A stretch of DNA of 64,000 nt from Gammaproteobacteria bacterium (GTDB taxonomy: Bacteria; Pseudomonadota; Gammaproteobacteria; HK1): NCBI GenBank assembly GCA_021773635.1, contig JAJFJV010000017.1, forward strand, positions 228,475 through 292,474. The letters run 5' to 3'. A model generated the notes under the pieces. The model worked only from the letters and a program-made list of their open reading frames with translations. It was not told the origin of the DNA and did no database searches. Each line of letters opens with the position of its first letter. Positions within the stretch are counted from its first letter, which is position 1. Shown piece after piece: positions 37,308 through 59,920 of the stretch. The position numbers were made by a program, and so were the translations under genes.

Positions 37308-37326
37308 GACGGGCAACCTCGAATAA

Positions 37327-37342: not shown

Positions 37343-37427
37343 CATTCTGGCACGGCCACCTGCAATGCGCAAAACACGGTAGCAAGCCGCCTTTGCTATA
37401 CTCTCGCGCCTCCACCCGAGGCCCGCC

Positions 37428-40331: not shown

Positions 40332-40358
40332 ATACAGCGCCCCGGCGCGTTGGCAAAC

Positions 40359-41780: not shown

Positions 41781-41851
41781 ATCCCGCTCCATTGCATCGG
41801 GGCTATGGTACTGTTTCCGCTCGCTTGGGGCATACCAATACGAACCAGAAT

Positions 41852-42472: not shown

Positions 42473-42476
42473 ACCC

Positions 42477-43025: not shown

Positions 43026-44278
43026 ACGATCAGGCCGAAACCGCTTCCTGTGCCGATAACCACAATCCGGGGCTGCTTACCATGGACGATGCGCGAACGC
43101 GGATCGTTTCCAGCATCGAGCCGATTAGCGAGCAAGAAGAGGTCGGACTGTGGGGTGCGCTCGGCCGGGTACTTGCCGAGGATATCCACTCGCCCATCGA
43201 TGTGCCGCCCTACACCAACTCAGCCATGGACGGTTATGCCCTTAACAGTCACGGCGTTGAACAAGGCGCAACCCTCCAGGTCATCGGTACCTCCTGGGCC
43301 GGCAAGCCCTTTGCCGGGCGCGTGGAGACAGGGGAATGCGCACGCATCATGACCGGCGGGGTCATCCCGGACGGTGCGGATGCGGTGGTCATGCAGGAAG
43401 TGGTGCAACGCGAGGCGGATACGATTTGCCTGCAACGCCCGGTACGTGCCGCGGAGAACGTTCGCCCGGCGGGAGAGGATCTGGCCGCCGGTGCCCGGGT
43501 GCTCGGCAAGGGGCAACGCATCCGGCCCGCAGACCTGGGTCTGCTCGCCTCCATTGGCGTCGCCGAAGTGACCGTCACACGACGTCCGCGGGTGACCATT
43601 TTTTGCACTGGAGATGAACTGCGAGCCGTTGGTCAGCCCCTGAAAAAGGGAGAAATCTACGACAGCAATCGCTATACCCTCTACAGCATGCTGGAGCGCC
43701 TGGGGGTGGAGATCATTGATCTCGGCGTCATTCCGGATCAACCAGCAGCACTGGAAAAGGCATTTGGTGAGGCCATGAAGGGTAGCGACGCCGTAATCAC
43801 CACCGGCGGTGTTTCGGTGGGGGATGCCGATTACGTCACCGGGATGCTGGAAAAACTGGGGCAAATAGATTTCTGGAAGATCGCCATCAAACCGGGCCGC
43901 CCCCTGGCCTTTGGCCGGCTCGGAGAGGGCCGGTTCTTCGGCCTGCCCGGTAACCCGGTCTCCGTGATGGTCACCTTCTACCAGTTCGTGCAACCCGCAT
44001 TACGGCGCATGATGGGAGAGACTCCGCCACCACGCATATTGCTGCAGATACCCTCCGCCACGCCTCTCAGAAAGCGCCCCGGACGCGCCGAGTTCCAGCG
44101 CGGCATACTGGAAACCGGGGAGGATGGAACACTGGTGGTGCGCAGCACCGGCCATCAGGGCTCCGGCATCCTCCGCTCCATGAGCGAGGCCAACTGCTTC
44201 ATTATTCTCACTGAGGAAAGCAGTGGTGTGGAGGCTGGAGAATTAGTCAGCGTAGAGCCCTTTCAGGGGTTGGTTTAG
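43022..44278 (+). CDS. moeA: Molybdopterin molybdenumtransferase MoeA
   Basis: A 418-residue enzyme. Motifs include PPYTNSAMDGYAL, GECARIMTGGVIPDGADAVVMQE, FCTGDEL, GEIYDSNRYTL, TTGGVSVGDADYV and KIAIKPGRPLAFG. It inserts molybdate into adenylylated molybdopterin. A short N-terminal extension of about 15 residues precedes the usual start. It is the last gene of the mob operon; a strong inverted repeat follows. Confidence 0.95.
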   Translation: MNDQAETASCADNHNPGLLTMDDARTRIVSSIEPISEQEEVGLWGALGRVLAEDIHSPIDVPPYTNSAMDGYALNSHGVEQGATLQVIGTSWAGKPFAGRVETGECARIMTGGVIPDGADAVVMQEVVQREADTICLQRPVRAAENVRPAGEDLAAGARVLGKGQRIRPADLGLLASIGVAEVTVTRRPRVTIFCTGDELRAVGQPLKKGEIYDSNRYTLYSMLERLGVEIIDLGVIPDQPAALEKAFGEAMKGSDAVITTGGVSVGDADYVTGMLEKLGQIDFWKIAIKPGRPLAFGRLGEGRFFGLPGNPVSVMVTFYQFVQPALRRMMGETPPPRILLQIPSATPLRKRPGRAEFQRGILETGEDGTLVVRSTGHQGSGILRSMSEANCFIILTEESSGVEAGELVSVEPFQGLV

Positions 44279-44286
44279 CTCCGGAT

Positions 44287-44364
44287 GGCGGCCACGGGCC
44301 GCCCTACACACACCAAATACCAGTCGTGGGCCTTCCAACATGCGTAGGGCGGCCCGTGGCCGCC
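44287..44364. repeat. 21-nt perfect inverted repeat between convergent moeA and amt
   Basis: The left arm (44287-44307, GGCGGCCACGGGCCGCC then CTAC) and the right arm (44344-44364) are perfect inverted copies separated by 36 nt. The arms are themselves partly palindromic (GGCGGCC...GGCCGCC). Position between two convergent stops suggests a bidirectional terminator or a REP-type element. No long T run follows either arm. Confidence 0.75.
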
Positions 44365-44371
44365 GTCCAAG

Positions 44372-45682
44372 CTAGAGGATATAACCCCGCTCATCATGTA
44401 GCGCGGTATCAAGACCCTCGACCTCCTGCTCCTCACTCACCCGCAGGCCAATCAAATTATCCAGGATTTTCAGGATCCCGTAGCTGAGAATACCGGTATA
44501 AATGGCGGTGGCCACCACCCCCACGAACTGGGCCACCAGCTGGGCACCAATTCCCTCATTACCCTCACCCAGTCCCGTGCCCCCAAAGACGGTGGCGGAA
44601 AACACCCCGGTCAGCATGGCGCCGATGATGCCACCCGCCGCATGCACCCCGAAGACATCCAGCGAATCGTCATAACCAAAGGCACGCTTCATCCGTGTGG
44701 CGGTAAAAAAGCAGCCCACTCCAGAGGCAAAGCCAATCGCCAGGGCCCCCATAGGTCCTACAGAGCCACAGGCGGGGGTAATGGCCACAAGGCCGGCCAC
44801 AACACCGGAGGCAATGCCAAGCACACTGGGCTTACCGTGGGATATCCACTCGCTAAACATCCAGGCCAGAGCGGCGGCACCCGTGGCAATCTGGGTAACC
44901 AGCATGGCCATACCGGCAGTACCGTCGGCAGCCAGTTCACTACCGGCATTGAAGCCGAACCAGCCCACCCACAACATGGCGGCGCCAATCACCGTCAGCG
45001 TCAGGTTATGCGGCGGCATGGCGGTGATGGGAAAGCCCTTGCGCTTGCCAAGCACTAACGCCGCCACCAGGCCCGCAACCCCGGCATTGATATGCACCAC
45101 AGTGCCACCGGCAAAGTCCAGCACCCCCCAGCTTCCCAACCAGCCACCACCCCATACCCAGTGACAAACGGGCAAGTACACCAGGGTGAACCACAAGCCC
45201 ATGAACCACAGCATGGCGGAAAACTTCATGCGCTCGGCGAAGGCACCGACTATCAGCGCCGGAGTAATAATCGCAAAGGTCATCTGGAAGGTAACGAACA
45301 CGGTTTCAGGAATGGTGCCACTCATGGCATCCAGATCCACCCCCGCAAGAAATGCCTTCCCCAGCCCGCCTATCATGGCGTTCATGCCGCCGCCAGGCTC
45401 AAAGGCGAGGCTGTAGCCATAGGCGATCCAAAGCACCGTCATCAGTGAGCTGATGGCAAAACACTGCATCATGACTGACAACACATTCTTGCTACGCACC
45501 ATGCCGGCGTAGAACAGCGCAAGACCAGGAACGGTCATGAACAACACCAGCGCAGTGGCCGTAAGCATCCACGCCGTATCTCCCGAATCAATGCCTTCGG
45601 CTGCCCGGGTAGTCAGAGGCACGGTGCCAAGAAGCAGGCCGCCAACATTAAGAATCAAAAATTTTCTGATGGAATTTCTCAT
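44372..45682 (-). CDS. amt: Ammonium transporter
   Basis: A 436-residue Amt/Rh protein with a probable signal sequence (residues 1-28, ending TRA-AEG) and 11 membrane helices. Signature segments are DTAWMLTATALVLFMTVPGLALFYAGMVRSKNV near the start (split here by family motif), the first pore His in TVVHINAGVAG and the second in DVFGVHAAGGIIG. It takes up ammonium and is normally blocked by GlnK. It follows glnK by 18 nt on one transcript. Confidence 0.95.
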   Translation of the reverse strand: MRNSIRKFLILNVGGLLLGTVPLTTRAAEGIDSGDTAWMLTATALVLFMTVPGLALFYAGMVRSKNVLSVMMQCFAISSLMTVLWIAYGYSLAFEPGGGMNAMIGGLGKAFLAGVDLDAMSGTIPETVFVTFQMTFAIITPALIVGAFAERMKFSAMLWFMGLWFTLVYLPVCHWVWGGGWLGSWGVLDFAGGTVVHINAGVAGLVAALVLGKRKGFPITAMPPHNLTLTVIGAAMLWVGWFGFNAGSELAADGTAGMAMLVTQIATGAAALAWMFSEWISHGKPSVLGIASGVVAGLVAITPACGSVGPMGALAIGFASGVGCFFTATRMKRAFGYDDSLDVFGVHAAGGIIGAMLTGVFSATVFGGTGLGEGNEGIGAQLVAQFVGVVATAIYTGILSYGILKILDNLIGLRVSEEQEVEGLDTALHDERGYIL

Positions 45683-45700
45683 TTTTTTCCTCCCTAAATC

Positions 45701-46042
<342 letters not shown>

Positions 46043-46072
46043 TTATCTCCTGACTAGTTCTACAGAACACAT

Positions 46073-46088
46073 TGCACAAGCCATGCCA
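46073..46088 (-). promoter_or_regulatory. Sigma-54 promoter of glnK-amt
   Basis: On the minus strand TGGCATGGCTTGTGCA has the invariant GG (-24) and GC (-12) with exactly ten bases between them. The predicted transcript start is about 23 nt before glnK. This implies NtrC-dependent expression under nitrogen limitation; no clear NtrC site was recognised upstream. Confidence 0.75.
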
Positions 46089-46307
46089 TCCATAAACACC
46101 ATGTTTATACAACGGCTTAGCTCTATTCACACAGATTTGAAACAGGCCGGAACGACCCGAAATGGTGCGTGAGCACGCCGCATGCCCAAAAAGAGTGCGT
46201 GTCACAAGTCAGGATAATGTTGTGGCAGGCGCTACCATGATTGCCTCACTCATCGGAGTGAGCGGTAGCGATAGGGGAAGCCTGGGCGCCGTGAATAGCT
46301 CTTGCCC
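46089..46307. other. Intergenic stretch without recognised gene
   Basis: Between the glnK promoter and the left edge of the integron array. It holds short GTGC/GCAC motifs near 46164-46200 that could be activator sites, but no protein-coding frame or RNA gene was recognised. Confidence 0.5.
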
Positions 46308-46397
46308 TCTAACGCTTGAAACCCCAAACAAAATGGCATGTGGAGATCACTGCTGTCCCGCTAACTTTCGGTGAATTCGGCCATATGCCTTGTTAGA
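46308..46397 (-). repeat. attC-like site at the distal end of the integron
   Basis: TCTAACGCTTGA at the left and CCTTGTTAGA at the right are the simple R'/R'' sites of an attC, and the left part resembles classical 59-base elements. The internal symmetry is weak. It is the leftmost attC signal and probably marks the old end of the array. Confidence 0.6.
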
Positions 46398-46451
46398 AAA
46401 AGCCAGACGGATGCATAGTCGCCTGGAAGACATGAAAATAAAAAAAAGCCC

Positions 46452-46536
46452 CGTCATTCCGGACAGCGTTTTTTGCTGAGCCGGAACCCAGGTTTTTCAA
46501 CCACTTACTGGATACCGGGTCAAGCCCGGCATGACG
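46452..46536. repeat. CGTCAT...ATGACG palindromic repeat, copy B
   Basis: An 85-bp element, the inverted counterpart of copy A (34015-34149). Shared segments include CGTCATTCCGGACAG, GTTTTTTGCTGAGCCGGA, GGTTTTTCAACCACT and CCGGGTCAAGCCCGGCATGA (minus-strand reading in copy A). It lies within the ORF-less 236-bp terminal cassette remnant (46313-46548). Confidence 0.75.
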
Positions 46537-46544
46537 AGTCTTAG

Positions 46545-46621
46545 TTAACGAGACAGCAGTGTGTGGAGATGAAGGCGTACAGGCGGTCTTTTTCCGCACG
46601 AACTACATTGTCAGGTTTCGC
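46545..46621 (-). repeat. Degenerate attC candidate after hxlR
   Basis: Left core TTAACG (46545-46550) and right TTGTCAGGTTTC (46610-46621). The right part matches the expected partner of the 5' end of the next cassette (GTTATGTTTC, minus strand from 47889) at most positions, but with substitutions in the core. The central palindrome is poor. This would make 46549-47888 a 1340-bp cassette holding hxlR and the SDR gene. Confidence 0.35.
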
Positions 46622-46958
46622 TCGAAATCTCGCTTTGGAGTTTCTCCAACTCATCGAGAATGCGGATGAATTTGCTGCCGAATCGGGTGACTTTATATTC
46701 AACCCGGGGTGGTACTTCATCGTAGGAGACTCGTTCCAGAATGCCAAAACTTGTGTTCCTGCGCAGGCATTCATTGAGCACCTTGGTGGTTAAGCCCTCA
46801 ACACTGCGCACCATTTTTCCCGGCCGGTTGATACCATTTGCGAGAAGCTGGTACACGGTGAGCGACCACTTGCAGCCATAAATGGTTTCAACCATACGCG
46901 CGCTTCGCTCAGGCGCTGATTTTCTCGAAAATACTTTTTCCTGACTTTTCATCAACAT
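46611..46958 (-). CDS. HxlR family transcription regulator
   Basis: A 115-residue winged-helix protein. The HxlR core is visible: [48 protein letters not shown] (broken here by family landmarks), with [21 protein letters not shown] as the wing. C29 (YGCKWS) sits where redox-sensing HxlR proteins carry a Cys. It is divergent from an SDR gene, the usual partner arrangement, and a GTAC-N6-GTAC palindrome lies at its start. Start could be codon 1 or the ATG at codon 3. It lies in the degenerate end of the integron array. Confidence 0.85.
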
Positions 46959-46972
46959 GTACCAATAAGTAC
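46959..46972. promoter_or_regulatory. Candidate HxlR operator
   Basis: GTACCAATAAGTAC, an inverted repeat GTAC-N6-GTAC, lies immediately upstream of the hxlR start and 92 nt before the SDR start. HxlR proteins often bind TAC/GTA-type palindromes between divergent genes. Confidence 0.45.
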
Positions 46973-47063
46973 CTACTGCACCAGATTGTGCTTACTTTTC
47001 AGCAGGCTACAGAGTTTCATAAGCTCCGTCCACACCTTGATAACCACCAGCGGAGATAATCTT

Positions 47064-47831
47064 ATGAACAACACAAACCAACCTTTAGCCTTGATAGTGG
47101 GTGGCTCCAGCGGGATGGGCCTCGCTACCGCAAAGCAGTTGCTTGCACGTGGCATTGATACCGTCCTTGTTGGCAGCACCCCTGCAAAACTGGAAAGCGC
47201 AAGGAATCAGCTTTCCGGAAAGGGACACGTTGAAACCATCCAGGCAAATCTGTCCGAGCCTGATGATGTCAAACGCGTGATCGATTTTTCCGAAGATCAC
47301 AACCGTCACATCAAATATCTTGTCAATGCGGCGGGATATTTCAAACCAACCCCATTCCTTGAGCATGAGCACAAAGACTTCGACACCTACATGGACCTGA
47401 ACCGCGCAGCGTTCTTCATTTCCCAGGCCGTCTCGAAAAATATGGCGGCAAATGGTGGCGGCTCTATTGTGCATATTGGCTCAATGTGGGCAAAACAGGC
47501 GATCAAGGCCACACCCTCCTCGGCTTATTCCATGGCCAAGGCCGGATTACACGCGCTCACTCAACACATGGCAATGGAATTGGCTGATGAGAATATCCGC
47601 GTTAATGCAGTTTCCCCGGCCGTTGTGAAAACCCCTATTTACGAGTCATTCATTGAACCGGAACAAATCGATGAAACGCTTGCCACATTCGATGCATTTC
47701 ATCCCGTTGGACGGATTGGCACACCGGAGGATGTCGCCAATACGATTAGCTTTCTGCTCAGTGACGAATCCAGCTGGGTAACGGGCGCCATCTGGGATGT
47801 TGATGGCGGGGTAATCGCGGGTAGAAACTAG
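47064..47831 (+). CDS. Short-chain dehydrogenase/reductase
   Basis: The product is 255 residues from the ATG at 47064, preceded by GGAG at 8 nt. The NAD(P)-binding motif is [21 protein letters not shown] is the second motif, and the catalytic Ser, Tyr and Lys lie in [10 protein letters not shown] and [14 protein letters not shown]. The C-terminal [11 protein letters not shown] is typical of classical SDRs. Substrate unknown. It is divergent from hxlR and runs opposite to the other cassette genes, so it must have its own promoter. Confidence 0.88.
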
Positions 47832-47884
47832 AACACCCTCCGGGTGGATGGCTGGATGCCTCCACCCGGGGGCGCTTGTGAAAC

Positions 47885-47972
47885 ATAACGTTGGAGCCAA
47901 GCCGCGCTGCCACCGGAACACCCGAGAAACACCACAGAACTTTCAAGCGTCGGCTTGGGCGATTTGTTAGAT
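47885..47972 (-). repeat. attC of cassette 9
   Basis: R' is ATAACG (47885-47890) and R'' is TTTGTTAGATT (right end). Inner arms GCCAAGCCG and CGGCTTGGGC pair. The R'' reads, on the minus strand, as the complement of the first bases of cassette 9 (TTAGATTGAC at 48296 downward). Confidence 0.8.
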
Positions 47973-48001
47973 TGCAGTCTCAATTCAATCTCCAAATCAT
48001 C

Positions 48002-48277
48002 CTAAGAAGAGCCAGAAGCTCCTCCTAAGACAGACAATCCGAACATACTCGATACTGCAACAATCAATGATACAGTTCCCTTAGCCAGATGCTTTTCACC
48101 AACTTCAGTGTATGAACCTGGCAGGAACGGTACAACAAACGGTAGCCAATTAGCCCAACGCCTTGCAGAAGGCCTCATATCCCCAAACATTTTCGAAAAA
48201 TGATAGATCATCGAAATTATTGAGGCGGCCGCCATAATAAAGACAACAACATTTAGGATCGCGTAGATTTTTTCCAT
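48002..48277 (-). CDS. Integron cassette 9: small two-helix membrane protein
   Basis: A 91-residue protein of unknown function. Two hydrophobic helices are seen: about residues 6-25 (ILNVVVFIMAAASIISMIY) and 68-86 (VSLIVAVSSMFGLSVLGG). Between them lies a basic, aromatic loop with WLPFVVPFLPGSY. The gene starts 19 nt inside a 408-bp cassette (47889-48296). No known family was recognised. Confidence 0.7.
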   Translation of the reverse strand: MEKIYAILNVVVFIMAAASIISMIYHFSKMFGDMRPSARRWANWLPFVVPFLPGSYTEVGEKHLAKGTVSLIVAVSSMFGLSVLGGASGSS

Positions 48278-48291
48278 ATTATTTTCGTCAA

Positions 48292-48350
48292 TCTAACGTC
48301 TCGCCTCAGTCGCGCGGCGAAGACGCGTCGGTCTGGAGGAGTTTGTTAGA
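48292..48350 (-). repeat. attC of cassette 8
   Basis: A 59-nt site with R' TCTAACG (48292-48298) and R'' TTTGTTAGA (48342-48350), with internal arms CGCGCGGCG and GACGCGTCGG. R'' is complementary to the first bases of cassette 8 (TTAGAGGACT). It encodes the last residues and stop of the cassette 8 gene. Confidence 0.85.
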
Positions 48351-48878
48351 GGATTTCTCCTCCAAACCAAATTCTTTGAATCGATGCAGCAACCGAACCC
48401 AGAATCGCACACCGAGGACTAGCAAAATTCCAAAAAGGACTTTTAATCCTGAAGCCAGAAAATTTGCTACAGAATTTACATTAAATGTTCTTTGCCCCTC
48501 AAACTCATAAGCCCCTCCAAATGTTTGGATCAGCAGACTGATAAAACCCGGAAGCGAAACAAAGACTATTACAAGGCCCGCCGTTGATATAGCTACGGCC
48601 TGTAATTGACCTATAGAGGTGCCAGACTCTTCCCCGCCATTTTTTTCACCGACTATCCACTTCGATAAAGCTGGAGTAACCATCCAAAGCACTATTCCTA
48701 CTACAAGGGGTCCAAATACTGCTGCAATAATTGCGACAATTCCAGCAGTATCAATCCCGGAACGACCATCGTTATAGAGCAATACTGTATAGATTGAAGG
48801 CAGGTACATTATCCCTCGCGCTATTACATAAATCGCAACAACTCGTACCGCTATTCTGGCTAGGATGTTTGGTTCCAT
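48306..48878 (-). CDS. Integron cassette 8: membrane protein of unknown function
   Basis: A 190-residue protein with four predicted membrane segments (about residues 8-28, 45-68, 92-120 and 140-160). AGGA precedes the ATG. Its C-terminus, SSNKLLQTDASSPRD, is encoded by the attC itself, so the tail is a cassette-derived extension and not part of the original fold. No known family was recognised. Cassette limits are 48297-48901. Confidence 0.7.
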   Translation of the reverse strand: MEPNILARIAVRVVAIYVIARGIMYLPSIYTVLLYNDGRSGIDTAGIVAIIAAVFGPLVVGIVLWMVTPALSKWIVGEKNGGEESGTSIGQLQAVAISTAGLVIVFVSLPGFISLLIQTFGGAYEFEGQRTFNVNSVANFLASGLKVLFGILLVLGVRFWVRLLHRFKEFGLEEKSSNKLLQTDASSPRD

Positions 48879-48896
48879 TTTCTATTTCCTAAGTCC

Positions 48897-48977
48897 TCTA
48901 ACGTTTAAATTGAGGGGCGAGCCGCTGTAAGGCGAGTCCCGAACTGAGCGCAGCGAAGGCTCAAATGCCTTGTTAGA
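48897..48977 (-). repeat. attC of cassette 7
   Basis: R' TCTAACG (48897-48903) and R'' CTTGTTAGA (48969-48977). Arms TTGAGGGGCGAGCC and GGCTCAAATG pair imperfectly. R'' complements the first bases of cassette 7 (TTAGAGGTTA). Confidence 0.85.
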
Positions 48978-48980
48978 GGT

Positions 48981-49442
48981 TTAATTTGCAAGATATGCAA
49001 TTTGTGATGAAACATATTCAATTTTCACATACCTTGCAGATTGTAGTGATAATTCAGGAATATATACGTTAAACCCCGTGCTGTTGCCTGAAGATATTTT
49101 ATTAATAGTAAACTCTTTGGATGCTTCTCCTACTGATAGAGTAAATTCTATATTTAAGTGGTCTACTGCTTGTGAATTAATTATACGGCCTGAAAATTTT
49201 ACACCTGTTAAGTGTTTCTCTTGTGTGGCACCAGTAAGCATGAAGACATTGTCTATTTGTTGAGTATTAGAAACAGAGAAGTCAACTGTATGCTTAGATG
49301 TGATTACTTCTACTAGAGAATTAATGCGCTGACTTTGTTCGCTTTGGTTTACTAGAACAAATAAACCAATTAAGAGAATAAGTATGAAATTTATAACTGG
49401 CAGCTTACTACTAGATTTATTATTTTCTGCGCTATCTGTCAT
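48981..49442 (-). CDS. Integron cassette 7: membrane-anchored protein of unknown function
   Basis: A 153-residue AT-rich gene product. It has one N-terminal membrane segment (about residues 15-32, VINFILILLIGLFVLVN) and a predicted periplasmic beta-rich domain with Ser/Thr/Asn-rich composition (FSVSNTQQIDNVFMLTGATQ). This is a type II anchored topology. No known family was recognised. Cassette limits are 48902-49464. Confidence 0.7.
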   Translation of the reverse strand: MTDSAENNKSSSKLPVINFILILLIGLFVLVNQSEQSQRINSLVEVITSKHTVDFSVSNTQQIDNVFMLTGATQEKHLTGVKFSGRIINSQAVDHLNIEFTLSVGEASKEFTINKISSGNSTGFNVYIPELSLQSARYVKIEYVSSQIAYLAN

Positions 49443-49459
49443 AGTAGTTTCTTTTAACC

Positions 49460-49548
49460 TCTAACGTTGTGATAACGTGCCACCATGAGTGGAGGCCCGT
49501 AGTTTGGGCCGTAGCTTATGGTGGTCACAGTTGATGACCTTGTTATGC
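49460..49548 (-). repeat. attC of cassette 6
   Basis: R' TCTAACG (49460-49466) and R'' TTGTTATGC (49540-49548). Arms GTGCCACCAT and ATGGTGGTCAC, and GGCCC/GGGCC in the centre, form a clear stem. R'' complements the first bases of cassette 6 (TTATGCATAC). Confidence 0.85.
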
Positions 49549-49551
49549 AAT

Positions 49552-49959
49552 TTAATGACTAACATATGCATCATTTTCAATAAAATCACAAAAGTCCTTT
49601 TTTAAATATGTTGAAGACTTTTCCATCATTTCACGAGTTACTTTGTCTGTCTTTTTGTCATCCTTAGAACGAATGGAGCGTACCAACATGGTTTTCAACA
49701 TATAACCTTTTATCATCATAAAATGATTTCGCATTTCCCCCAATTCTTCAGGGTATGGGGCTTCCTTATTATTGGTGGTATTAGCATTTATAAGTTTTTG
49801 GAGCTCCGAAGCTGCTTTATTGGCGCGCTCTAAAGTAAATGCACTTTCATCCACTGGCCAATGGCCTTCACCTTGGCTTTTTACCTTTTTACAAAATTCG
49901 ACTCCATGTGCAGTAATTGAAAAGAAGGAAAAAGCCAAGATTAAAATAGTTTGTTTCAT
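49552..49959 (-). CDS. Integron cassette 6: small secreted protein of unknown function
   Basis: A 135-residue protein with a signal peptide (MKQTILILAFSFFSITAHG, cleavage about residue 19). The mature part is helical and charged, with two Cys (FCKKVK and DFCDFI) that could form a disulfide. AAGGA precedes the ATG by a normal distance. No known family was recognised. Cassette limits are 49465-49980. Confidence 0.7.
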   Translation of the reverse strand: MKQTILILAFSFFSITAHGVEFCKKVKSQGEGHWPVDESAFTLERANKAASELQKLINANTTNNKEAPYPEELGEMRNHFMMIKGYMLKTMLVRSIRSKDDKKTDKVTREMMEKSSTYLKKDFCDFIENDAYVSH

Positions 49960-49974
49960 ATGATTCCTTTGTAT

Positions 49975-50029
49975 GCATAACGCCCAGAGCTGCGGTGCGA
50001 AGCATCCGCCAGCCTTTGCTTGTTATGGC
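49975..50029 (-). repeat. attC of cassette 5
   Basis: A 55-nt site with R' GCATAACG (49975-49982) and R'' TTGTTATGGC (50020-50029), and arms CTGCGGTGC/GCATCCGCCAG. R'' complements the first bases of cassette 5 (TTATGGCTTT). It contains the stop codon of the cassette 5 gene. Confidence 0.85.
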
Positions 50030-50496
50030 CATACTCCGGTAAATTTCAAACTTTCAATTTCGCTTATTGCAAAATGTTCGGTAACTTGGGCTAAATGCCC
50101 GCTCAACGATATCATCACAAATTGACCGTAAGCCGCCATGTCGGCAAAGTGCGCTGTTAGCCTAAAGAAAGATCTTGATCGTTCTTCCACGTTCACATAG
50201 AACTCAATGTTTCCCGCCGCCCAGTTACCGTTATTGGATATGGCAAACTTATAACTACCCTCCGGAAGTTCATAGACCATATAACTTCCGTTTCGTATCC
50301 CCAACGATGGTTCACCATCAATAGTGAGGGTAGGAATCGCAAGGCCCATTACAAAGCTTGACGGTCTATAGATGTAGACTTGGCCAGTACCAGGTTGGAA
50401 TTCGACTAGCCCACTATAGGGAACTCCCTTAGCTCCGCCCAAACTCGTGCAAGCTGCCAAGAACAAAACACAGATCAGTAACAAACATCTAATCAT
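50023..50496 (-). CDS. Integron cassette 5: lipoprotein, DUF2846-like
   Basis: The product is 157 residues from the ATG at 50496 (GGAG upstream). The lipobox LAAC is at the end of MIRCLLLICVLFLAACTSLGG. The domain has the DUF2846 pattern: GQVYIYRPSSFVMG, LTIDGEPSLGIRNGSYMVYELPEG and SYKFAI. DUF2846 lipoproteins have no settled function. The open frame extends 41 codons upstream across an attC, but the lipobox fixes this start. Cassette limits are 49981-50519. Confidence 0.78.
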   Translation of the reverse strand: MIRCLLLICVLFLAACTSLGGAKGVPYSGLVEFQPGTGQVYIYRPSSFVMGLAIPTLTIDGEPSLGIRNGSYMVYELPEGSYKFAISNNGNWAAGNIEFYVNVEERSRSFFRLTAHFADMAAYGQFVMISLSGHLAQVTEHFAISEIESLKFTGVWP

Positions 50497-50513
50497 TGTG
50501 GGAGCTCCGAAAG

Positions 50514-50608
50514 CCATAACGCCTGCATATGCGGCTTGCGTGGAGCGCAGCGGAACGCAAGTCCGAGCCGGCGCATTTTGCTGGCGACATAATGCACTTG
50601 TTATAAGG
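50514..50608 (-). repeat. attC of cassette 4
   Basis: R' CCATAACG (50514-50521) and R'' TTGTTATAAGG (50598-50608), with stem arms CGGCTTGCGT and ACGCAAGTCCG, and GCCGGC in the loop region. R'' complements the first bases of cassette 4 (TTATAAGGCA). Confidence 0.85.
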
Positions 50609-51005
50609 CATTTTTCCACGTCCTACCTGTTAGCTTTACGCTCACTATGCATGAAATTACACACGGTAATAAAAAAAAGAGTAATAGGAATATTAAGGTG
50701 TAAGTATGATCATTGCCAAAAGGAAAACGTACCAATAGAGAGTAAGCTATAAAGCCTAGTAGTGGTGTAACTATACCGAGAACAACTCCTTTCGATTTAT
50801 AAATTAAACCTGACACAAACCCTGCTGCGATAGAACTTAAAACGTATATGTAAAAAAAGTTTCGGCACGCCCAAATTTCGTGTGCTTCGTGAACATCAAT
50901 GTTGCCGCAATTTGACCAAAATACCTCTTCGGAAACGAACATCCCCAAATAGACAATAATACTTCCCGCAATAGAGCCTAATACGAATTTTTGAGTTTTA
51001 CTCAT
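50601..51005 (-). CDS. Integron cassette 4: membrane protein of unknown function
   Basis: A 134-residue protein with four hydrophobic segments (about residues 8-26, 52-72, 75-95 and 102-124). C33 and C47 in the first loop could be paired. The ATG lies only 9 nt inside the cassette, so translation must depend on the cassette leader or upstream coupling. The stop lies in the attC. No known family was recognised. Cassette limits are 50520-51014. Confidence 0.7.
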   Translation of the reverse strand: MSKTQKFVLGSIAGSIIVYLGMFVSEEVFWSNCGNIDVHEAHEIWACRNFFYIYVLSSIAAGFVSGLIYKSKGVVLGIVTPLLGFIAYSLLVRFPFGNDHTYTLIFLLLFFLLPCVISCIVSVKLTGRTWKNAL

Positions 51006-51008
51006 GCC

Positions 51009-51120
51009 TTATAACGCCGCGGTAAATTGCAGCTTTGTAGTTGATTGTGTTGTGGCAGCGTAGCGACCGCCACATAAACAAGCGACGGAAAAGCTGTCAA
51101 TTTGACCGCTTTGTTAACTG
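51009..51120 (-). repeat. attC of cassette 3
   Basis: The longest site of the array (112 nt), with R' TTATAACG (51009-51016) and R'' TTGTTAACTG (51111-51120). Arms GCGGTAAATTG/CAATTTGACCGC and TTGCAGCTTT/AAGCTGTCAA pair. R'' complements the first bases of cassette 3 (TTAACTGTAC). Confidence 0.85.
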
Positions 51121-51510
51121 TGCGATGGTGGAGCTGCGGTACAAAATTAAAAACCACAAACCGTACCAAACAAAGCAAGCCAGGTAAGAATATAAAATAA
51201 TATTACTTGATGGCTTGCCACCGGCCCAACCCCACGCCATTGCATTACCACTATAAAAGAACGCTAATGCCAAAGCTACAAGACCAACTTTACGAGCCCA
51301 TAGCTTTAGCTTAAGCAGACCAATACCACTTACCAAAAGCGCTACCGAGATAAAAAACTCTCCCGAATACGAACCCAATTTATACGCTAACGACTGAACC
51401 TCAAACTCTTGATGGTTTGGGCCAAGATTCAGCAGGGGCCAAATAGTGCCGATAAATCCAGAAATAATTAGATAAAAGGCTGTAATTCGAAGTGCTTTAG
51501 TCATATTCAT
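51097..51510 (-). CDS. Integron cassette 3: membrane protein of unknown function
   Basis: A 137-residue protein with four predicted membrane helices (about residues 8-28, 48-66, 72-92 and 102-124), DoxX-like in size but without convincing motifs. The ATG is 12 nt inside the cassette and has no Shine-Dalgarno; a second ATG follows at codon 3. The stop lies in the attC. Cassette limits are 51015-51522. Confidence 0.7.
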   Translation of the reverse strand: MNMTKALRITAFYLIISGFIGTIWPLLNLGPNHQEFEVQSLAYKLGSYSGEFFISVALLVSGIGLLKLKLWARKVGLVALALAFFYSGNAMAWGWAGGKPSSNIILYSYLACFVWYGLWFLILYRSSTIAQLTKRSN

Positions 51511-51515
51511 GTGTA

Positions 51516-51613
51516 CAGTTAACGTTTGAGTTAAGCGGCTGCCTTGCCCAGAGCGAAGCGGCGGGTAAGGCAGTCCGGCCCCGCAGGGGCGAACTTCAAC
51601 GACTTGTTATGCG
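51516..51613 (-). repeat. attC of cassette 2
   Basis: R' CAGTTAACG (51516-51524) and R'' TTGTTATGCG (51604-51613), with arms GTTTGAGTT/AACTTCAAC and CTGCCTTGCC/GGTAAGGCAG, and a CCCCGCAGGGG inner hairpin. R'' complements the first bases of cassette 2 (TTATGCGTCA). Confidence 0.88.
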
Positions 51614-51616
51614 TAA

Positions 51617-51961
51617 CTAGATAGAGCGCCAACATAGATCTCCTCTGCAACTAGCCTGAACTACGATTTGTTTAGAGGTATTTACTTCGATGTATATAGT
51701 CGCTTTTTGCGTTGAGTTAAATGGGAATTTATAAGTTCGAGAAACATTAAATACCCAGATTACATTATTATTTTCAAGTTTTAGAATCGAATCTGGAATT
51801 GCATCTCGTAAATAGCCCACTCTCGCCAAATACGCTTGTTGTATGGGTTTGCCAGATAAGCTTTCTAAGTTTTTATTGAATTCGTCGTATGCCATACCCT
51901 TGGTAGCGCACCCAGATAAAGCAATGCAAATTACTAAGAGTATGAGGAAATTGTTACGCAT
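51617..51961 (-). CDS. Integron cassette 2: lipoprotein of unknown function
   Basis: The product is 114 residues from the ATG at 51961, chosen because GGGAG lies 9 nt upstream. The lipobox LSGC ends the signal sequence MRNNFLILLVICIALSGC. The mature part has YDEFNKNLESL and a beta-rich C-terminal half with two Cys (ASCRGDLCWRSI). It has the look of small SmpA/BamE-like lipoproteins, but no motif proves it. In-frame ATGs at 51970 and 52030 are less likely. Cassette limits are 51523-52040. Confidence 0.72.
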   Translation of the reverse strand: MRNNFLILLVICIALSGCATKGMAYDEFNKNLESLSGKPIQQAYLARVGYLRDAIPDSILKLENNNVIWVFNVSRTYKFPFNSTQKATIYIEVNTSKQIVVQASCRGDLCWRSI

Positions 51962-52033
51962 CGATGCCATCTCCCGCTTGAATTGTGGGCTTTGAATGTA
52001 GAACCCTTCATTTATTCTCGCTAATTCCATTGA

Positions 52034-52131
52034 CGCATAACGCCTTGCTCAGAGGCATTTTAAAGTGGCGCATTTTTGCGTATGCAAAATAAGCGCCGCT
52101 TTAAAATGTCCACTGGAGCTATTTGTTATGT
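52034..52131 (-). repeat. attC of cassette 1
   Basis: R' CGCATAACG (52034-52042) and R'' TTTGTTATGT (right end). Arms CATTTTAAAG/CTTTAAAATG and GGCGC/GCGCC give a long stem. R'' complements the first bases of cassette 1 (TTATGTGAGT at 52962 downward). It contains the stop of the cassette 1 gene. Confidence 0.88.
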
Positions 52132-52938
52132 GATGTTTATTAATTTTTCTGGCAACCATCTTGATTGATCTTCATATCCTTTAGGTAGAAGTTTTTCTCG
52201 ATATTCCTTTCCTTGTAGAATTTTTTCAATTATTGGGTGCTCTGGATTATTTCTACCAAGAGTGTTTTCTCCATAAAAATAACCAAAGCCTCCTTCATGC
52301 TCTGCATTAAAACGTGAATTTATTGTTTCTATAATTTGAGCTGATTCATCAAAGAAAAAATCACCAAAATGAACATTTGTGCTCCATAGGACACCATAGC
52401 CTTTTATGTTTTTGTCAAATAGCGCCTTAACATTAGCTGTACATCTTTGGATCCAGTAAGCCCAATTAACTACTTCAATTCCTGTTTCATCTTCAACTAT
52501 TTTTTTCTTTCTAAAAGGTCCATGCTTTGGAGGCCCATACCTTGAAATAGCAAAATGTGATGGACCATCAAACTCTACAAAAACAGAATGACCTTCATAG
52601 GTTATTTTAAAATCCATTTTGAATCTTTTAATTCTAATTTGTCTTTCTATATTACAGTTTGGTAAGGCCTCTTTAATAATTGAAATTAAAAGAAATTCAT
52701 CTAGACTTGAGTATTCAACTGGTGGCGCATTATTTATTTCACCACCATACCAAGCTTTTTGAATTTTACGTTCATCAATTACTTCTACGCCTTCCATAAC
52801 TTTAAATTTTAGAAAGCTAATATCATCATCATTAACACCTAGGAATTCTTTAATATCGCTTTTAGTGAGAAAAGAACCAATTGACATATCACTATTCTTT
52901 AAATCAAAAATTCCTTGCGGTCTTCCTAGTATTGCCAT
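52126..52938 (-). CDS. Integron cassette 1: putative PD-(D/E)XK/RAP-like nuclease-fold protein
   Basis: A 270-residue, very AT-rich gene directly next to attI. The central region has a strand-strand pattern like Vsr/DUF559/RAP-type nuclease folds: D109 in RFKMDFKITYEG, E122-F-D124-G in VFVEFDGPSHF, H128, then basic KKKI (144-147) and a final strand EVVNWAYWIQ. It may be a restriction or repair endonuclease. No methyltransferase gene is adjacent. The N-terminal third (FLTKSDIKEFLGVNDDD) looks like a helical DNA-binding or recognition region. The start codon overlaps the stop of a short attI ORF (TAATG). Confidence 0.6.
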   Translation of the reverse strand: MAILGRPQGIFDLKNSDMSIGSFLTKSDIKEFLGVNDDDISFLKFKVMEGVEVIDERKIQKAWYGGEINNAPPVEYSSLDEFLLISIIKEALPNCNIERQIRIKRFKMDFKITYEGHSVFVEFDGPSHFAISRYGPPKHGPFRKKKIVEDETGIEVVNWAYWIQRCTANVKALFDKNIKGYGVLWSTNVHFGDFFFDESAQIIETINSRFNAEHEGGFGYFYGENTLGRNNPEHPIIEKILQGKEYREKLLPKGYEDQSRWLPEKLINIT

Positions 52939-53048
52939 TATTTATTCTCTTGACTCACATAACAGGATTTATGTGGAAAGCTGGCTCGTGTAATGATTAA
53001 TGCCGATTCGGCAATAAACGGATCAGTGAATACGCTCCGAGGGCTCAT
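52938..53048 (-). CDS. Short ORF spanning attI, coupled to the first cassette
   Basis: A 36-codon frame begins at the ATG at 53048 with GGAG six bases upstream and starts MSPRSVFTDPFIAESALI. It crosses the attI recombination point inside a TGT codon and ends TAA, overlapping the ATG of the cassette 1 gene as TAATG. The peptide has no recognisable domain. It resembles in arrangement the short ORF-11 of attI1 in class 1 integrons, which aids cassette translation. Coding is inferred from ribosome binding site, length and overlap. Confidence 0.55.
   Translation of the reverse strand: MSPRSVFTDPFIAESALIITRASFPHKSCYVSQENK
52956..52963 (-). other. attI recombination core
   Basis: On the minus strand the junction is G|TTATGTG, where the G (52963) belongs to attI and TTATGTG opens cassette 1. 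Upstream in attI lies CCACATAAATCCTG, containing a partial inverted copy (CACATAA). It sits 278 nt from the intI start, between divergent intI and cassettes. The exact outer limits of attI are not defined. Confidence 0.75.
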
Positions 53049-53063
53049 GCTTTTCTCCATAAC

Positions 53064-53172
53064 ACTAATACATTTTATTTATCAACATGTTACAACCTCA
53101 CCGGCCTTCCTTTTCAGTGACCGGTATTTTGGTCTCTCCCGCATTATGTCGCCATCTTTCCACATAATCCGA
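53064..53172. other. intI-attI intergenic region
   Basis: An AT-rich stretch (around 53070-53110 on the minus strand: TTGTAACATGTTGATAAATA) that could hold the cassette promoter Pc, with candidate boxes TTGTAA and TGTATT. No candidate is close enough to consensus to be called. No protein-coding frame was recognised apart from the short ORF ending at 53048. Confidence 0.35.
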
Positions 53173-53201
53173 TTGACATAGCCAGCGCCCGCATCTACTG
53201 T
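53173..53201 (+). promoter_or_regulatory. intI promoter
   Basis: A consensus -35 TTGACA (53173-53178) and a -10 TACTGT (53196-53201) are separated by 17 nt. The -10 lies inside a LexA box, so bound LexA would block RNA polymerase. Confidence 0.75.
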
Positions 53202-53215
53202 ATTTATAATCAGTA
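53196..53215 (+). promoter_or_regulatory. LexA (SOS) box overlapping the intI promoter
   Basis: TACTGTATTTATAATCAGTA is one base away from the core CTGT-N8-ACAG (TCAG in the right half) and otherwise follows the extended consensus. It lies 26 nt before the intI start. LexA control of intI is established for several integrons. Confidence 0.8.
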
Positions 53216-53240
53216 TTCGTAAAGGACCAGGGAGGGTTCC

Positions 53241-54251
53241 ATGAGTCACTCACCTTTTCTCAACAAAGTTCGTGAGGCAGTTCGGGTTCGCCATTATGCC
53301 CTGGCGACGGAAAAGACTTATGTGCACTGGGTGAAGCGCTTCATTTTGTTCCACGGCAAGCGCCACCCCGAACAGATGGGTGAAGCCGAGGTCAGACGCT
53401 TTCTCTCGGATCTGGCGGTTCGTCGGCGGGTTGCACCCGCCACTCAAAACCAGGCGCTGTGCGCGCTCGTCTTTCTCTACAAATCGGTGCTCGATCGACC
53501 ACTTGGCGAGATGCAAGGCTTGGTCTGGGCCAAATCCCGGCAACATATTCCAGTGGTTCTGAGTACTGGGGAGGTGGCCACTATTCTTTCCCGTTTGCGA
53601 GATATGTACTGGCTCATCGCCGGCTTGCAATATGGCTCGGGGTTGCGTCTGCGTGAGAGCATTCGGCTGCGAGTCCAGGATCTCGATTTTTCGCGCCATG
53701 CGATAGTGGTTCGCCACGGCAAGGGAGGCAAAGACCGGGTGGTGACCCTGGCGGAGCAGCTTGTTGCACCACTTCAGCATCACCTCGCACGACGGCAGAA
53801 TTTGTTTGACTCCGACCGCACCGCCGGATTTGATACTGTCTCGCTGCCGTGGGCTCTGGCGCGGAAATATCCGCATGCGGAAAGCGAATGGGGCTGGCAG
53901 TTCGTATTTCCCGCCTCGCGGATCGGGGCTGATCCGATTTCCGGCACCCGTCGGCGGCATCATATTCATGCTTCGGCGGTGCAAAAGGCGCTCAAGGCAG
54001 CGGTTCGCCGAGCTGGCATTCAAAAGCGCGCGACCTGCCATACGCTGAGACATTCTTTCGCGACCCATTTGCTGGAAAGCGGGGCGGATATCCGCACGGT
54101 GCAGGAGCAGTTGGGGCATGCCAGCGTGGAAACCACGCAAATTTATACCCATGTGCTCAATCGTGGCGGGCGGGCTGTGGCGAGTCCTCTGGATCGATTG
54201 GCTGGGCAGGATACCGCTAGCAAAGCAGCGGGTTTGAGGAATAGTTACTGA
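53241..54251 (+). CDS. intI: Integron integrase IntI
   Basis: A 336-residue tyrosine recombinase, full length and with no frameshift. Catalytic residues are R136 (GSGLRLRES), H267 and R270 (CHTLRHSF), H293 (LGHAS) and Y302 (TTQIYTHV). The IntI-specific extra domain is present between about residues 205 and 250 (SEWGWQFVFPASRIGADP and RRRHHIHASAVQKALKAA), which separates it from XerC/D. GGGAGGG lies 5-6 nt before the ATG. It is divergent from nine cassettes across attI, the standard integron layout, and is preceded by an SOS-regulated promoter. Confidence 0.96.
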   Translation: MSHSPFLNKVREAVRVRHYALATEKTYVHWVKRFILFHGKRHPEQMGEAEVRRFLSDLAVRRRVAPATQNQALCALVFLYKSVLDRPLGEMQGLVWAKSRQHIPVVLSTGEVATILSRLRDMYWLIAGLQYGSGLRLRESIRLRVQDLDFSRHAIVVRHGKGGKDRVVTLAEQLVAPLQHHLARRQNLFDSDRTAGFDTVSLPWALARKYPHAESEWGWQFVFPASRIGADPISGTRRRHHIHASAVQKALKAAVRRAGIQKRATCHTLRHSFATHLLESGADIRTVQEQLGHASVETTQIYTHVLNRGGRAVASPLDRLAGQDTASKAAGLRNSY

Positions 54252-54793
54252 CGCACGCGAAGGCGATTCCAGATTTCCATTCCGATCGTCGGGACCTTTC
54301 CGAGCCTTTCCCTCTCTTAGCCTCACGATCATGCTGGCGTCTCCATGACAACATTCATTCCACTTCCCGCACACTTTCGGGACAGGCTGGCTGGGCTCAT
54401 CCGAAGCTTGGCAGCTATTTCCTGATGGAAAACTTAAACCCTGAAAGGCGGTGTTTCAAGGATTTTTTGTGATGGCAGCTCAATTGCTTAGCTTCTTGAG
54501 ACTATCCCTCTGCCCACTGCGTAGCTTTGCAATAGCTTGGTGTCTGACATCCTTGTCGTTGTGATAAACATCGGCGGACATGGTCCGCCCTGCTTCTGAT
54601 ACCCGTTGCTGCGGCTGATGACGTTGCGCTGCTGCGCACCGACAGGTGTCACATGCATGTCGGTTTGTCGTTGAGCATGCCTTCAGGCTCAAACCTGGAT
54701 TCAAGGCCTTTCCGGGGAAACATTGGCTTGAGGGAAAAGCTTTCCGGCGGTAGGCTCCGCCCCAGATTACTTATCGACGGGAGAGCTGGACTC
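54252..54793. other. Intergenic stretch between intI and ialB
   Basis: A 542-nt region with no convincing gene. On the minus strand a 33-residue frame (54480-54581, MSADVYHNDKDVRHQAIAKL...) could be the end of a decayed gene. On the plus strand a 26-residue frame begins MTTFIPLPAHFRDRLAG near 54343 and stops at once. No attC, terminal inverted repeat or tRNA was recognised. Confidence 0.4.
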
Positions 54794-55330
54794 ATGGAAT
54801 CAAAGTATTGGAAGAAGACCAAGCCGGGAATGGCCCTGATTGGGCTACTCGTCAGCTTGCTAACAGTCCCCACCCTGGCTACTGCCCAGGAGAAGACACC
54901 ACCCGAGCCGAAACGCTTTGAGGACTGGATGCTGCGCTGCGAGCAGCCACCCGCTGGCGGGGCCGAACAATGCTTTGTATTTCAAAACCTGGTTATGCGA
55001 GAGGGCAAGGGGCGGGTGCTATTGTTCGCGGTGACCTATCCACCGCAGCGGGCAGAGCCGGTGGCGATACTCACCCTGCCCCTCGGAATCTCGCTGCCAC
55101 CGGGGGTATCCATGCAGGTGGCTGAGGATGAGCCGCTGCGGCTGGCCATCGAGCACTGCATCCCGGCAGGCTGCCGCGTGGTGCTACCGCTGGAGAAAGG
55201 CCTGCTGGATAAACTCAAGGCGGAAGGGAAGACGCAGGTAACCTTCCACGATGCCCGCCGTCGGCCGGTCAAGCTCACGGTTTCCCTGAAGGGCTTCACC
55301 GCGGCTCTCAAGGAGCTAAAAAAACCCTGA
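54794..55330 (+). CDS. Invasion-associated locus B (IalB) family protein
   Basis: The product is 178 residues from the ATG at 54794. A signal peptide runs to about TLATAQ-EKT. The IalB pattern is seen: FEDWMLRCEQPP, GGAEQCFVFQNLV, ISLPPGVSMQV, and HCIPAGCRVVLPLEKGLLDKLKAEG, with two Cys pairs. IalB-family proteins are periplasmic; in most bacteria the role is unknown despite the name. It is convergent with the DUF192 gene, with almost no space between stops. Confidence 0.85.
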   Translation: MESKYWKKTKPGMALIGLLVSLLTVPTLATAQEKTPPEPKRFEDWMLRCEQPPAGGAEQCFVFQNLVMREGKGRVLLFAVTYPPQRAEPVAILTLPLGISLPPGVSMQVAEDEPLRLAIEHCIPAGCRVVLPLEKGLLDKLKAEGKTQVTFHDARRRPVKLTVSLKGFTAALKELKKP

Positions 55331-55331
55331 A

Positions 55332-55859
55332 TCAAGGTCCGGGAGGGAGTTTGAACAAGGGATGTGTGACCCGGTCACCCGCCCCTATACCCAGCCGGGC
55401 CACAGTCCCCGCCAGCACCTCCAGCACGCCTCGCACTGGCCCGGGAGACGGAATGTAGCGGGTGGAGAAAGGGGTGGCCCGGGGGTGGATGGCCAGAATC
55501 CGGCCATCGTCCGCGACAAACAACATATCAAGGGATAGCGGCGTATCCTTCATCCACATGCTGACCGGCCGCGACGGATTCAGATAGAACAACATCCCCT
55601 GGTCAGGAAGCAGGTTTTGCCGGCCCATGAGGCCCTGCATCTGTTGCCGTGGCGTACGTGCCACCTCAACACTAAAGCGATGCCGGGCACCATCTTGTCC
55701 CTCAATCAGTAACAACTCCCCGGCATGGAGTGCCTGGGAGCCCATTAGCAGGCTGATTAGGGCAAGCCACGCCAGTGGAACCGGGTGGCGCTGAAGCCTG
55801 TCCCGAAAAAAACCGCCCAGCCAGCGCTCAGGAAGTCCGCGCGTCCAGCTGTGGGACAT
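55332..55859 (-). CDS. DUF192 family exported protein
   Basis: A 175-residue protein with an N-terminal membrane/signal region (about residues 27-46, PLAWLALISLLMGSQALHAG). The DUF192 core is VEVARTPRQQMQGLMGR, GMLFYLNPSRPVSMWMKDTPLSLDMLFVADDG and VLEVLAGTVARLGIGAGDRV. Function unknown. The start used overlaps the end of alr by 32 nt; the long basic N-terminus makes a later start possible, but no better-placed ATG precedes the signal segment. Confidence 0.82.
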   Translation of the reverse strand: MSHSWTRGLPERWLGGFFRDRLQRHPVPLAWLALISLLMGSQALHAGELLLIEGQDGARHRFSVEVARTPRQQMQGLMGRQNLLPDQGMLFYLNPSRPVSMWMKDTPLSLDMLFVADDGRILAIHPRATPFSTRYIPSPGPVRGVLEVLAGTVARLGIGAGDRVTHPLFKLPPGP

Positions 55860-56976
55860 CGGCCATTCCTTCCTCGATGCGCTCTACCCGGGTGGTGAGC
55901 TTGCAGGTCAGCTCGTAGGGGATGGTCTGCGCAGCGCGGGCCACCACCTCTACCGGCAACTCTGACCCCCAAAGTAACACCGGATCGCCTACCCGGGCCC
56001 CCGGCTGGGTACGCAGGTCCACACTGATCATGTCCATGGAAACCCGCCCGATTAAAGGCACTTTCACACCATTTACCAATACCGGCGTCCCTGAAGCTGC
56101 GTGGCGCGGATAACCATCACCATATCCCACCGCGGCCACACCCACGGGCATGTCTTCGGGACAAATCCAGCGGCCACCATAGCCAACGGCATCACCTCTG
56201 GAAAACTGATTAACCGCTATCAGGCGGGTACTGAGCGTCATCACCGGACGCAAACCATGGTCGCTGCCCACCGCGTCGGAAAAGGGTGAAATACCGTAGA
56301 GCATGATGCCCGGGCGCAACCAGTCTGCATGAGTGTGTTCCCACGCCAGTATGCCGGCAGAGTTGGCAATACTGAGCTCTCCCGGATGTTGCCGCGAAAT
56401 GGCCCGAAAACATTCGAGCTGCTTCGCCGTCTGAGGATTCTCCGGCTCGTCCGCGCTGGCAAGGTGAGTCATCAGGCGCACTGGCGTAGTAACGGCCGCA
56501 CAGCCCGAAAGACGGGCCATGATCTCGCCGTAGGCCGCGGGAGGAAAGCCCAGCCGGTGCATGCCGGTATCGATCTTCAACCAAACCGGAATTTCCTCAC
56601 CAGCGGGCGAGCACTCCAGCATGTCCAGCTGGGAGGGATGATGGAGTACGCTTTCAAACCGGTGTTCGCGCACCAGCGCAAGCTCCTCAGGGGAGGAAAA
56701 CCCCTCCAGCACCACGATGCGCTGATGGATTCCGCCATCGCGCAGGGCCATCGCCTCGGCCACCCGGGCTACGCCAAAGGCATCGACCCCGGCCAAAGCT
56801 TGCGCGACCCGTAAAGCACCGTGACCGTAACCATCTGCCTTGACCACCGCCATAACCCGCGATGCTGGCGCCAACTCGCGAATCCGTTGCAGGTTGTGAC
56901 CAAGGGCAGCGAGATCAATAACGGCACGTGTGCGGCTGAACGCATCATCGCAGCGCCATGGGCGCTCTATGCTCAC
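55828..56976 (-). CDS. alr: Alanine racemase
   Basis: A 382-residue PLP enzyme. The PLP-binding Lys is in SRVMAVVKADGYGHGAL, and the second catalytic Tyr lies in AVGYGDGYPRH. It makes D-alanine for peptidoglycan. It starts at a GTG that overlaps the dnaB stop (GTGA), the common dnaB-alr order of gammaproteobacteria. Confidence 0.95.
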   Translation of the reverse strand: MSIERPWRCDDAFSRTRAVIDLAALGHNLQRIRELAPASRVMAVVKADGYGHGALRVAQALAGVDAFGVARVAEAMALRDGGIHQRIVVLEGFSSPEELALVREHRFESVLHHPSQLDMLECSPAGEEIPVWLKIDTGMHRLGFPPAAYGEIMARLSGCAAVTTPVRLMTHLASADEPENPQTAKQLECFRAISRQHPGELSIANSAGILAWEHTHADWLRPGIMLYGISPFSDAVGSDHGLRPVMTLSTRLIAVNQFSRGDAVGYGGRWICPEDMPVGVAAVGYGDGYPRHAASGTPVLVNGVKVPLIGRVSMDMISVDLRTQPGARVGDPVLLWGSELPVEVVARAAQTIPYELTCKLTTRVERIEEGMADVPQLDARTS

Positions 56977-58358: not shown

Positions 58359-58459
58359 AAGCCTGAGTCACCCACCAGAAGATTGAAACCGCACCCCGCA
58401 AAGTCCACGGTGGTGCAGGAGGAGGATCCTACACCAGCGGGGGTACTGCAAATAAGTTG

Positions 58460-58909: not shown

Positions 58910-58961
58910 CACGTCACCTTTGTCATCTTGTTGCCACTAACCCGCCGCGGGCAGGAACCAT

Positions 58962-59870: not shown

Positions 59871-59920
59871 GGCCTAGCCCGCATCCCCGCTTTCAACAGC
59901 GGACGGATCCGCCACAATCT

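Follow-up and report, generated by a model that had tools for sequence, protein, structure and literature searches.

The 64,000-nucleotide stretch analyzed here (the window; G000:C9:228475-292474) comes from a 2.55-Mb gammaproteobacterial draft genome (G000) and carries a chromosomal integron, in which an integrase gene (intI) and its attachment site (attI) adjoin nine gene cassettes, each with its own attC site. The array itself is an ordinary integron. The novel part, which is worth testing, is that copies of the attI module lacking a complete intI occur at other places in a genus sample of three genomes, all draft assemblies, comprising G000 and its congeners G001 and G002. We read the element as a sedentary integron whose single integrase likely loads these satellite modules in trans, a reading to which we give a probability of about 0.6. 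Because there are 12 intI-less attI copies, seven of them beside a cassette-like unit, the data suggest that one integrase serves many landing pads, and we infer the trans action of IntI on the satellites from these draft genomes only.

Integrase-free copies of the attI module

The attI module next to intI lies on the minus strand at 52960-53184 (~225 bp), with the crossover between 52963 and 52962. Searching the three genomes with the attI-intI stretch revealed, besides the three main modules, seven satellites in G002, three in G000 (one of just 43 bp) and two in G001. Two 34-48 nt matches to the intI-side end alone (G002:C11:2071 and G001:C4:189308) and matches to intI or the intI tail without attI were kept outside this count. 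Over ~225 bp, the satellites were 64-90% identical among themselves and with the main attI. In all 12 the homology ended at 52956-52963, at most 7 bases from the crossover, and in eight the intI-side end fell at 53182-53184, 12 bases short of a LexA box in the intI promoter. Beyond each satellite crossover lay other DNA, with an open reading frame (ORF) starting within 40 bases in the six copies inspected. At the attI adjoining intI, the crossover region was conserved in three congeners and the sequence beyond it differed.

Cassettes derived from circular intermediates carry a signature, in that their own first bases are complementary to the R'' box of their own attC. We scored this own-start signature at the satellites as a match of at least 8 of 9 nt that runs on into an attC-like continuation; 11 copies were testable, C19 being cut by a contig end. 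Seven of the 11 passed (C30, C17, C20, C15 and C14 in G002, C11 in G000 and C28b in G001), compared with 43 of 1288 GTTR positions taken at random in these loci. An exact-run version requiring at least 8 nt gave 5 of 11 copies compared with 31 of 837 background positions. Both backgrounds are conservative because real cassette boundaries may be among them. In five copies (C30, C20, C15, C14 and C28b) the own-start match and an attC called by a covariance model began on the same base. Uncounted were 8-of-9 matches seen before the continuation was required, namely one at C24 (no GTT core), a second at C17 and a second at G000_C11. A cassette-type unit thus sits directly at the crossover of seven satellite copies.

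Three satellite sites were orthologous between species pairs (G000_C11 and G002_C19, G001_C28b and G002_C24, G001_C4 and G002_C20). Because these sites are shared between species and have homologous flanks, an assembly artefact is an unlikely source of the satellites. The G001_C4/G002_C20 site adjoins an L-serine dehydratase-like ORF and aligns on both chromosomal flanks; the inserts it holds, of ~2.1 and ~1.8 kb, showed no mutual similarity at E ≤ 1e-6. G002 also holds a related pair of cassettes: over ~495 bp counted from both cassette starts, a later cassette of the C17 array was 78% identical to the one that opens the C20 array. A further shared repeat of 55-125 bp was observed ~20-165 bp from the attI module in the left flanks of G002_C17, C20 and C15 and of G001_C4; the window gave no match to a 26-base piece of this repeat.

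The simplest explanation covering all these observations, we infer, is that one integrase acts on several attI sites. DNA damage would induce IntI through the LexA box, and IntI would join folded bottom-strand attC sites to the main attI and to the satellites. The captured genes would often have envelope or nuclease/defence roles, and the satellites would offer one way for clusters of attC sites lacking integron-integrases (CALINs) to arise and stay supplied. If trans loading is true, one integrase diversifies many sites rather than one. We put even odds on the fuller proposal of a distributed integron, with one SOS-controlled integrase, integrase-free attI pads across the genome, some at loci shared between species, and independently changing arrays; CALINs would then be working outposts, not ruins.

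Competing explanations and known systems

Several observations weigh against trans loading. Four of the 11 testable copies (C24, C29, C11b and C4) failed the own-start test, and 275 of the 1288 background positions match when the attC-like continuation is not required. Within the family the attI module was found in this genus only (3 of 17 genomes) and not in the other 14. A consensus scan of the module revealed no sigma-70-like promoter (Pc), with 0.9 expected by chance, and an integrase-less attC cluster in G000 (C11:355-364 kb) had no detectable attI copy in the attI search of that genome. In a quick tree built from 14 copies of attI, the members of the three orthologous pairs failed to group. 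Either there has been exchange or conversion of modules, or the result is misleading because the alignment is short; in the former case, simple vertical inheritance of the individual modules is disfavored. Lastly, intI or its tail persists at C30, C24 and C28b, and the LexA side is kept at C14; these satellites are plainly decayed platforms.

The same relics favor an alternative in which the satellites are dead leftovers of duplicated whole integrons that once had their own intI, were loaded, lost intI and are no longer targets. An intI-tail-only copy at G000:C9:212119 fits this account, as does C4, one of the two G001 satellites, which has no attC call in addition to its failed start test. 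Eight of the 12 copies, in contrast, end in the same 3-base stretch, an unlikely outcome of independent intI deletions, and several G002 copies have cassette-type starts and attCs. We therefore consider dead leftovers an unlikely, if serious, explanation. Because most of the other satellites have a common sharp end, we argue that the unit comprises attI only.

The sharp common ends could also be those of a unit resembling a miniature inverted-repeat transposable element, spread by a transposase and ending by chance in attI. In support, an inverted repeat lies near both module ends (52969-52985 and 53151-53167, 94% complementary over 17 nt). However, target-site duplications are unreadable, with other DNA following one end, and within the family the module was found in one genus only; we regard this origin as improbable.

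Outside the family, G031 carries a partial intI-less copy (C40:172397) of the attI of its own integron (L182:1501-1720), matching over 64 nt at 94%. No attC above 10 bits was found within 1.5 kb of it, and as a similar case it is suggestive only.

The attG sites of Loot et al. 2024, which are also mentioned in PMC12444791 and PMC12901181, are reportedly integrase targets outside the integron. Under trans loading the satellites would resemble attG and attI-like secondary sites in this respect. Such secondary sites are described as short degenerate cores or as divergent from attI, whereas the satellites keep their similarity to attI over the whole module; attI-like sites are described as frequent across genomes in the available text of PMC10127599, which refers to short degenerate cores rather than long copies.

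One attI per integron is taken as the rule in the accessible portions of PMC3607928 and PMC9024848. A literature search for repeated or additional attI sites, in which subscription papers were mostly outside coverage, revealed no description of this arrangement among the papers inspected. A close parallel to the main locus is provided by the sedentary integrons at the ilvD locus of Xanthomonas (PMC12444791, available text). There too the ancestral platform stays at a fixed locus, the cassettes vary and are mostly of unknown function, and intI has been inactivated in particular lineages. In that text intI is placed at ilvD and CALINs at other conserved loci, with no attI copies mentioned; here, intI-less attI copies head several arrays.

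CALINs as defined in IntegronFinder 2.0 are attC arrays away from intI, and the accessible part of that paper (PMC9024848) proposes that they are degraded integrons, notes that attI outside class 1 goes undetected, and gives similar counts of integrase-less attC clusters and complete integrons from one survey (2961 versus 2760). The C11:355-364 kb cluster of G000, with at least two attC sites and no nearby intI, is a CALIN by this definition. In contrast to described CALINs, several intI-less arrays here are headed by a recognisable attI. The origin of integrase-less attC clusters is unsettled, and a recognisable attI at the cluster head offers a simple, testable source.

The main integron and its turnover

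The integrase gene (53241-54251, plus strand) encodes a 336-aa integron integrase (TIGR02249, 452 bits against a cut-off of 265; Pfam Phage_integrase and SAM_4). As the preliminary description of this DNA had stated, IntI is complete and reads away from the cassettes, which lie on the minus strand. It keeps the motifs of its relatives, whose residues we take to have the usual catalytic roles, including the final tyrosine (TTQIY). This was the one full-length IntI match in G000, the six others being tyrosine recombinase pieces of 32-53% identity; G002 had one full-length IntI among six matches. The closest named relative by IntI is the metagenome-assembled genome Gammaproteobacteria bacterium OFTM50 (90% identity). 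Behind intI, an unstranded platform tail at 54252-54464 is common to G002 and is found in part in G001 and at four relic loci (L148, L167, L170 and L171).

A LexA-type SOS box lies in the intI promoter (53196-53215, plus strand). Scored against the LexA consensus, the box matches at 17 of 20 positions, and the congener boxes at 17/20 and 18/20. The sole other plus-strand LexA-type site in the window with a score of at least 14/20 and both half-site cores (37325-37344) precedes the probable start of a minus-strand ORF (36696-37415), read as lexA, by ~18 bases. This other strong box serves as an internal check for SOS boxes in the organism, and because it adjoins an ORF read as lexA, SOS control of intI is likely.

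The preliminary description had also delimited nine genuine cassettes, and its coordinates proved exact. All nine boundaries are crossover points, cut between the G and TT of a GTTRnnn core. With the preceding G counted, the starts of cassettes 1-9 are complementary to their own R'' boxes over 9, 9, 9, 12, 8, 8, 10, 9 and 9 nt, i.e. 8-12 nt where 7-9 had been claimed. The circular-intermediate signature is thus present in 9/9 cassettes; as a control, each start was compared with the eight R'' boxes not its own, which gave runs of 4-8 nt, reaching 8 solely for cassettes 7/8. The attC sites measure 54-111 nt from the R'' 7-mer to R', close to the earlier 55-112.

A check by attC covariance models had been proposed, with failure at most sites as grounds for doubt. 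We scanned the window with model R1, trained on 24 attCs, all from other genomes, with filters off. This analysis revealed 13 matches at E ≤ 5, and the top ten by bits were the nine cassette attCs and a terminal attC at 46307-46398. Four of these ten were weak (18.0, 16.5, 15.5 and 14.4 bits; E 0.07-0.5), close to the 12.8 bits of the best non-array match. The model did not fail on the array, and the cassettes are genuine both by the own-start rule and by the model. Two other tools performed less well. A regex-and-duplex attC scan recovered 2 of 10 sites, its R'' pattern being overly strict, and added three false sites in the array region. A perfect-run chain finder recovered the array only partly as chains (3+2+1+1, one end point wrong) and also gave mirror-image chains of 2 on the opposite strand; six mononucleotide shuffles gave none of at least 2.

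The suggestion that the array was assembled from several sources also held up. Cassette ORFs have a GC content of 32-45%, whereas intI has 58% and the window outside them 59%. Among the nine attCs the mean pairwise identity is 0.50, compared with 0.47 when shuffled. High attC similarity within an array, described as a general but non-strict trait of sedentary chromosomal integrons (PMC8352920, available text), is absent here on this measure.

We also compared the locus with that of the congeners. In G001 the integron occupies the same chromosomal site, with window positions 40002-46199 and 54705-59998 both aligning at ~80% to one contig. Between these flanks lie four cassettes, the attCs of all four called by the model, and no match to the window cassette proteins was found there. 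The G001 IntI (L117:9184-10227) diverges from the family after approximately residue 285, its catalytic-tyrosine end being replaced, and because it is without the catalytic tyrosine the G001 platform is probably dead. This protein is a natural inactive comparison for IntI. In G002 the platform (attI, intI and tail) is 86% identical, and again no window cassette protein matches. When the fixed locus was tested in G002, the glnK side was seen and the intI side was different. One G002 cassette (L118:1005-4637) holds an ORF for a STAND-type NTPase, a stop and then a second large ORF, of which the first piece alone was scanned.

Both congeners have other cassettes next to attI, and neither has an identical gene order, which had been put forward as the mark of a fossil array. 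The idea that the nine cassettes are a fossil array, frozen and without exchange, was rejected as extremely improbable: the old scar that G002 shares at the distal end (46345-46555) is in its favor, but IntI is full length and has a LexA box, the cassette ends are intact, and both congeners have different cassettes beside attI. We conclude that the window holds an ordinary sedentary chromosomal integron that is probably live. The preliminary account of it was correct as far as it went, but missed both the recurrence of the attI module elsewhere and this old scar.

Cassette proteins, the integrase-less cluster and the distal end

All nine cassettes lie on the minus strand. None of their ORFs passed an NCBIfam cut-off, and one of the nine passed a Pfam cut-off. 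Cassette 1 (52041-52962; weak attC at 52035-52131, 15.5 bits) carries an ORF at 52126-52938 for a 270-aa predicted PD-(D/E)XK nuclease. Residues E80, D108, E121 and H127 are invariant; alignment A1 comprised the window protein and 35 relatives chosen by hand from 120 listed. The window protein itself had no Pfam match at E ≤ 1; 12 of the 36 A1 members matched MTES_1575 (best E 0.0095) and 7 of 36 matched DUF559 (best E 0.0018), in both cases weakly. The protein may have the core fold of these PD-(D/E)XK endonucleases, but with long additional N- and C-terminal parts. The family has 268 relatives in a large protein collection. Among 369 sampled genomes of the class it was found in its own genome only, with none in the other 368, and no match was found in plasmids or viral contigs. 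Cassette 1 is therefore a new candidate for defence assays.

Cassette 2 (51523-52040; attC 51517-51612) encodes a predicted lipoprotein of 137 aa (ORF 51617-52030, lipobox by eye). Cassette 3 (51015-51522; attC 51009-51119, 18.0 bits) has a 137-aa ORF at 51097-51510, and cassette 4 (50520-51014; attC 50514-50606) a 134-aa ORF at 50601-51005; both products are membrane-like, the former by eye and the latter with family matches below cut-offs. Cassette 5 (49981-50519; attC 49975-50028) is the one with a passing Pfam match, encoding a DUF2846 protein (ORF to 50023; PF11008, 38.7 bits against a cut-off of 34.3). Cassette 6 (49465-49980; ORF 49552-49959, 135 aa) has a weak attC at 49459-49548 (14.4 bits). 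Its protein matched itself only among 5.8 billion proteins at the sensitivity of that search, and in 38 relatives it was found in its own genome only. Cassette 7 (48902-49464; attC 48896-48978) has a 153-aa ORF at 48981-49442. The 190-aa membrane-like (by eye) ORF of cassette 8 (48297-48901; ORF 48306-48878) runs into its own attC at 48291-48351, and cassette 9 (47889-48296; ORF 48002-48277, 91 aa) has the attC with the top model score (47883-47972, 38.6 bits). Searching the window cassettes against 117 loci, including L117 and L118, gave no match at E ≤ 1e-3, while the intI positive control gave 125 matches. The C11 cluster and loci L146-L149 likewise gave none, in searches that had the satellite loci L162-L173 outside their range.

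In G000, the C29 satellite (L169:7846-9319), which fails the own-start test, has next to it a gene for Shedu SduA (573 bits; Pfam SduA_C) and then a weak attC call of 17.4 bits. The integrase-less C11:355-364 kb cluster (L132:4049-14845), where no IntI match was found, has TIR, DUF6615, NOV_C and weak HNH genes in or adjoining it. We took seven of its eight minus-strand model matches (12.4-39 bits), leaving out one of 10.5 bits. Own-start runs at four successive junctions were 9, 8, 8 and 13 nt, followed by 5 and 5 at the next two. A plus-strand match of 16.6 bits (L132:10769-10837) also lies within the cluster.

At the distal end of the main array, the tail at 46308-47888 does not form a clean cassette, a point absent from the preliminary description. 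When its start (GTTATGTTT) is compared with the R'' of the terminal attC in reverse complement, they share just the GTTA core (4 nt). The R'' of that attC (46307-46398, minus strand, 16.5 bits) matches the cassette starts of this array over 6 nt at most. The tail has a GC content of 49-51% and carries genes for an HxlR regulator (46611-46958, minus strand; PF01638, 57.7 bits) and an SDR oxidoreductase (47064-47831, plus strand; PF13561, 181 bits). The stretch 46345-46555, which is also found beside glnK in G002, reads as the old scar mentioned above. A palindromic hairpin-like repeat at 46440-46540 in the tail is present beside glnK in G002 too. The sole Rfam match in the window at the gathering threshold was a t44 RNA (RF00127) at 13349-13445.

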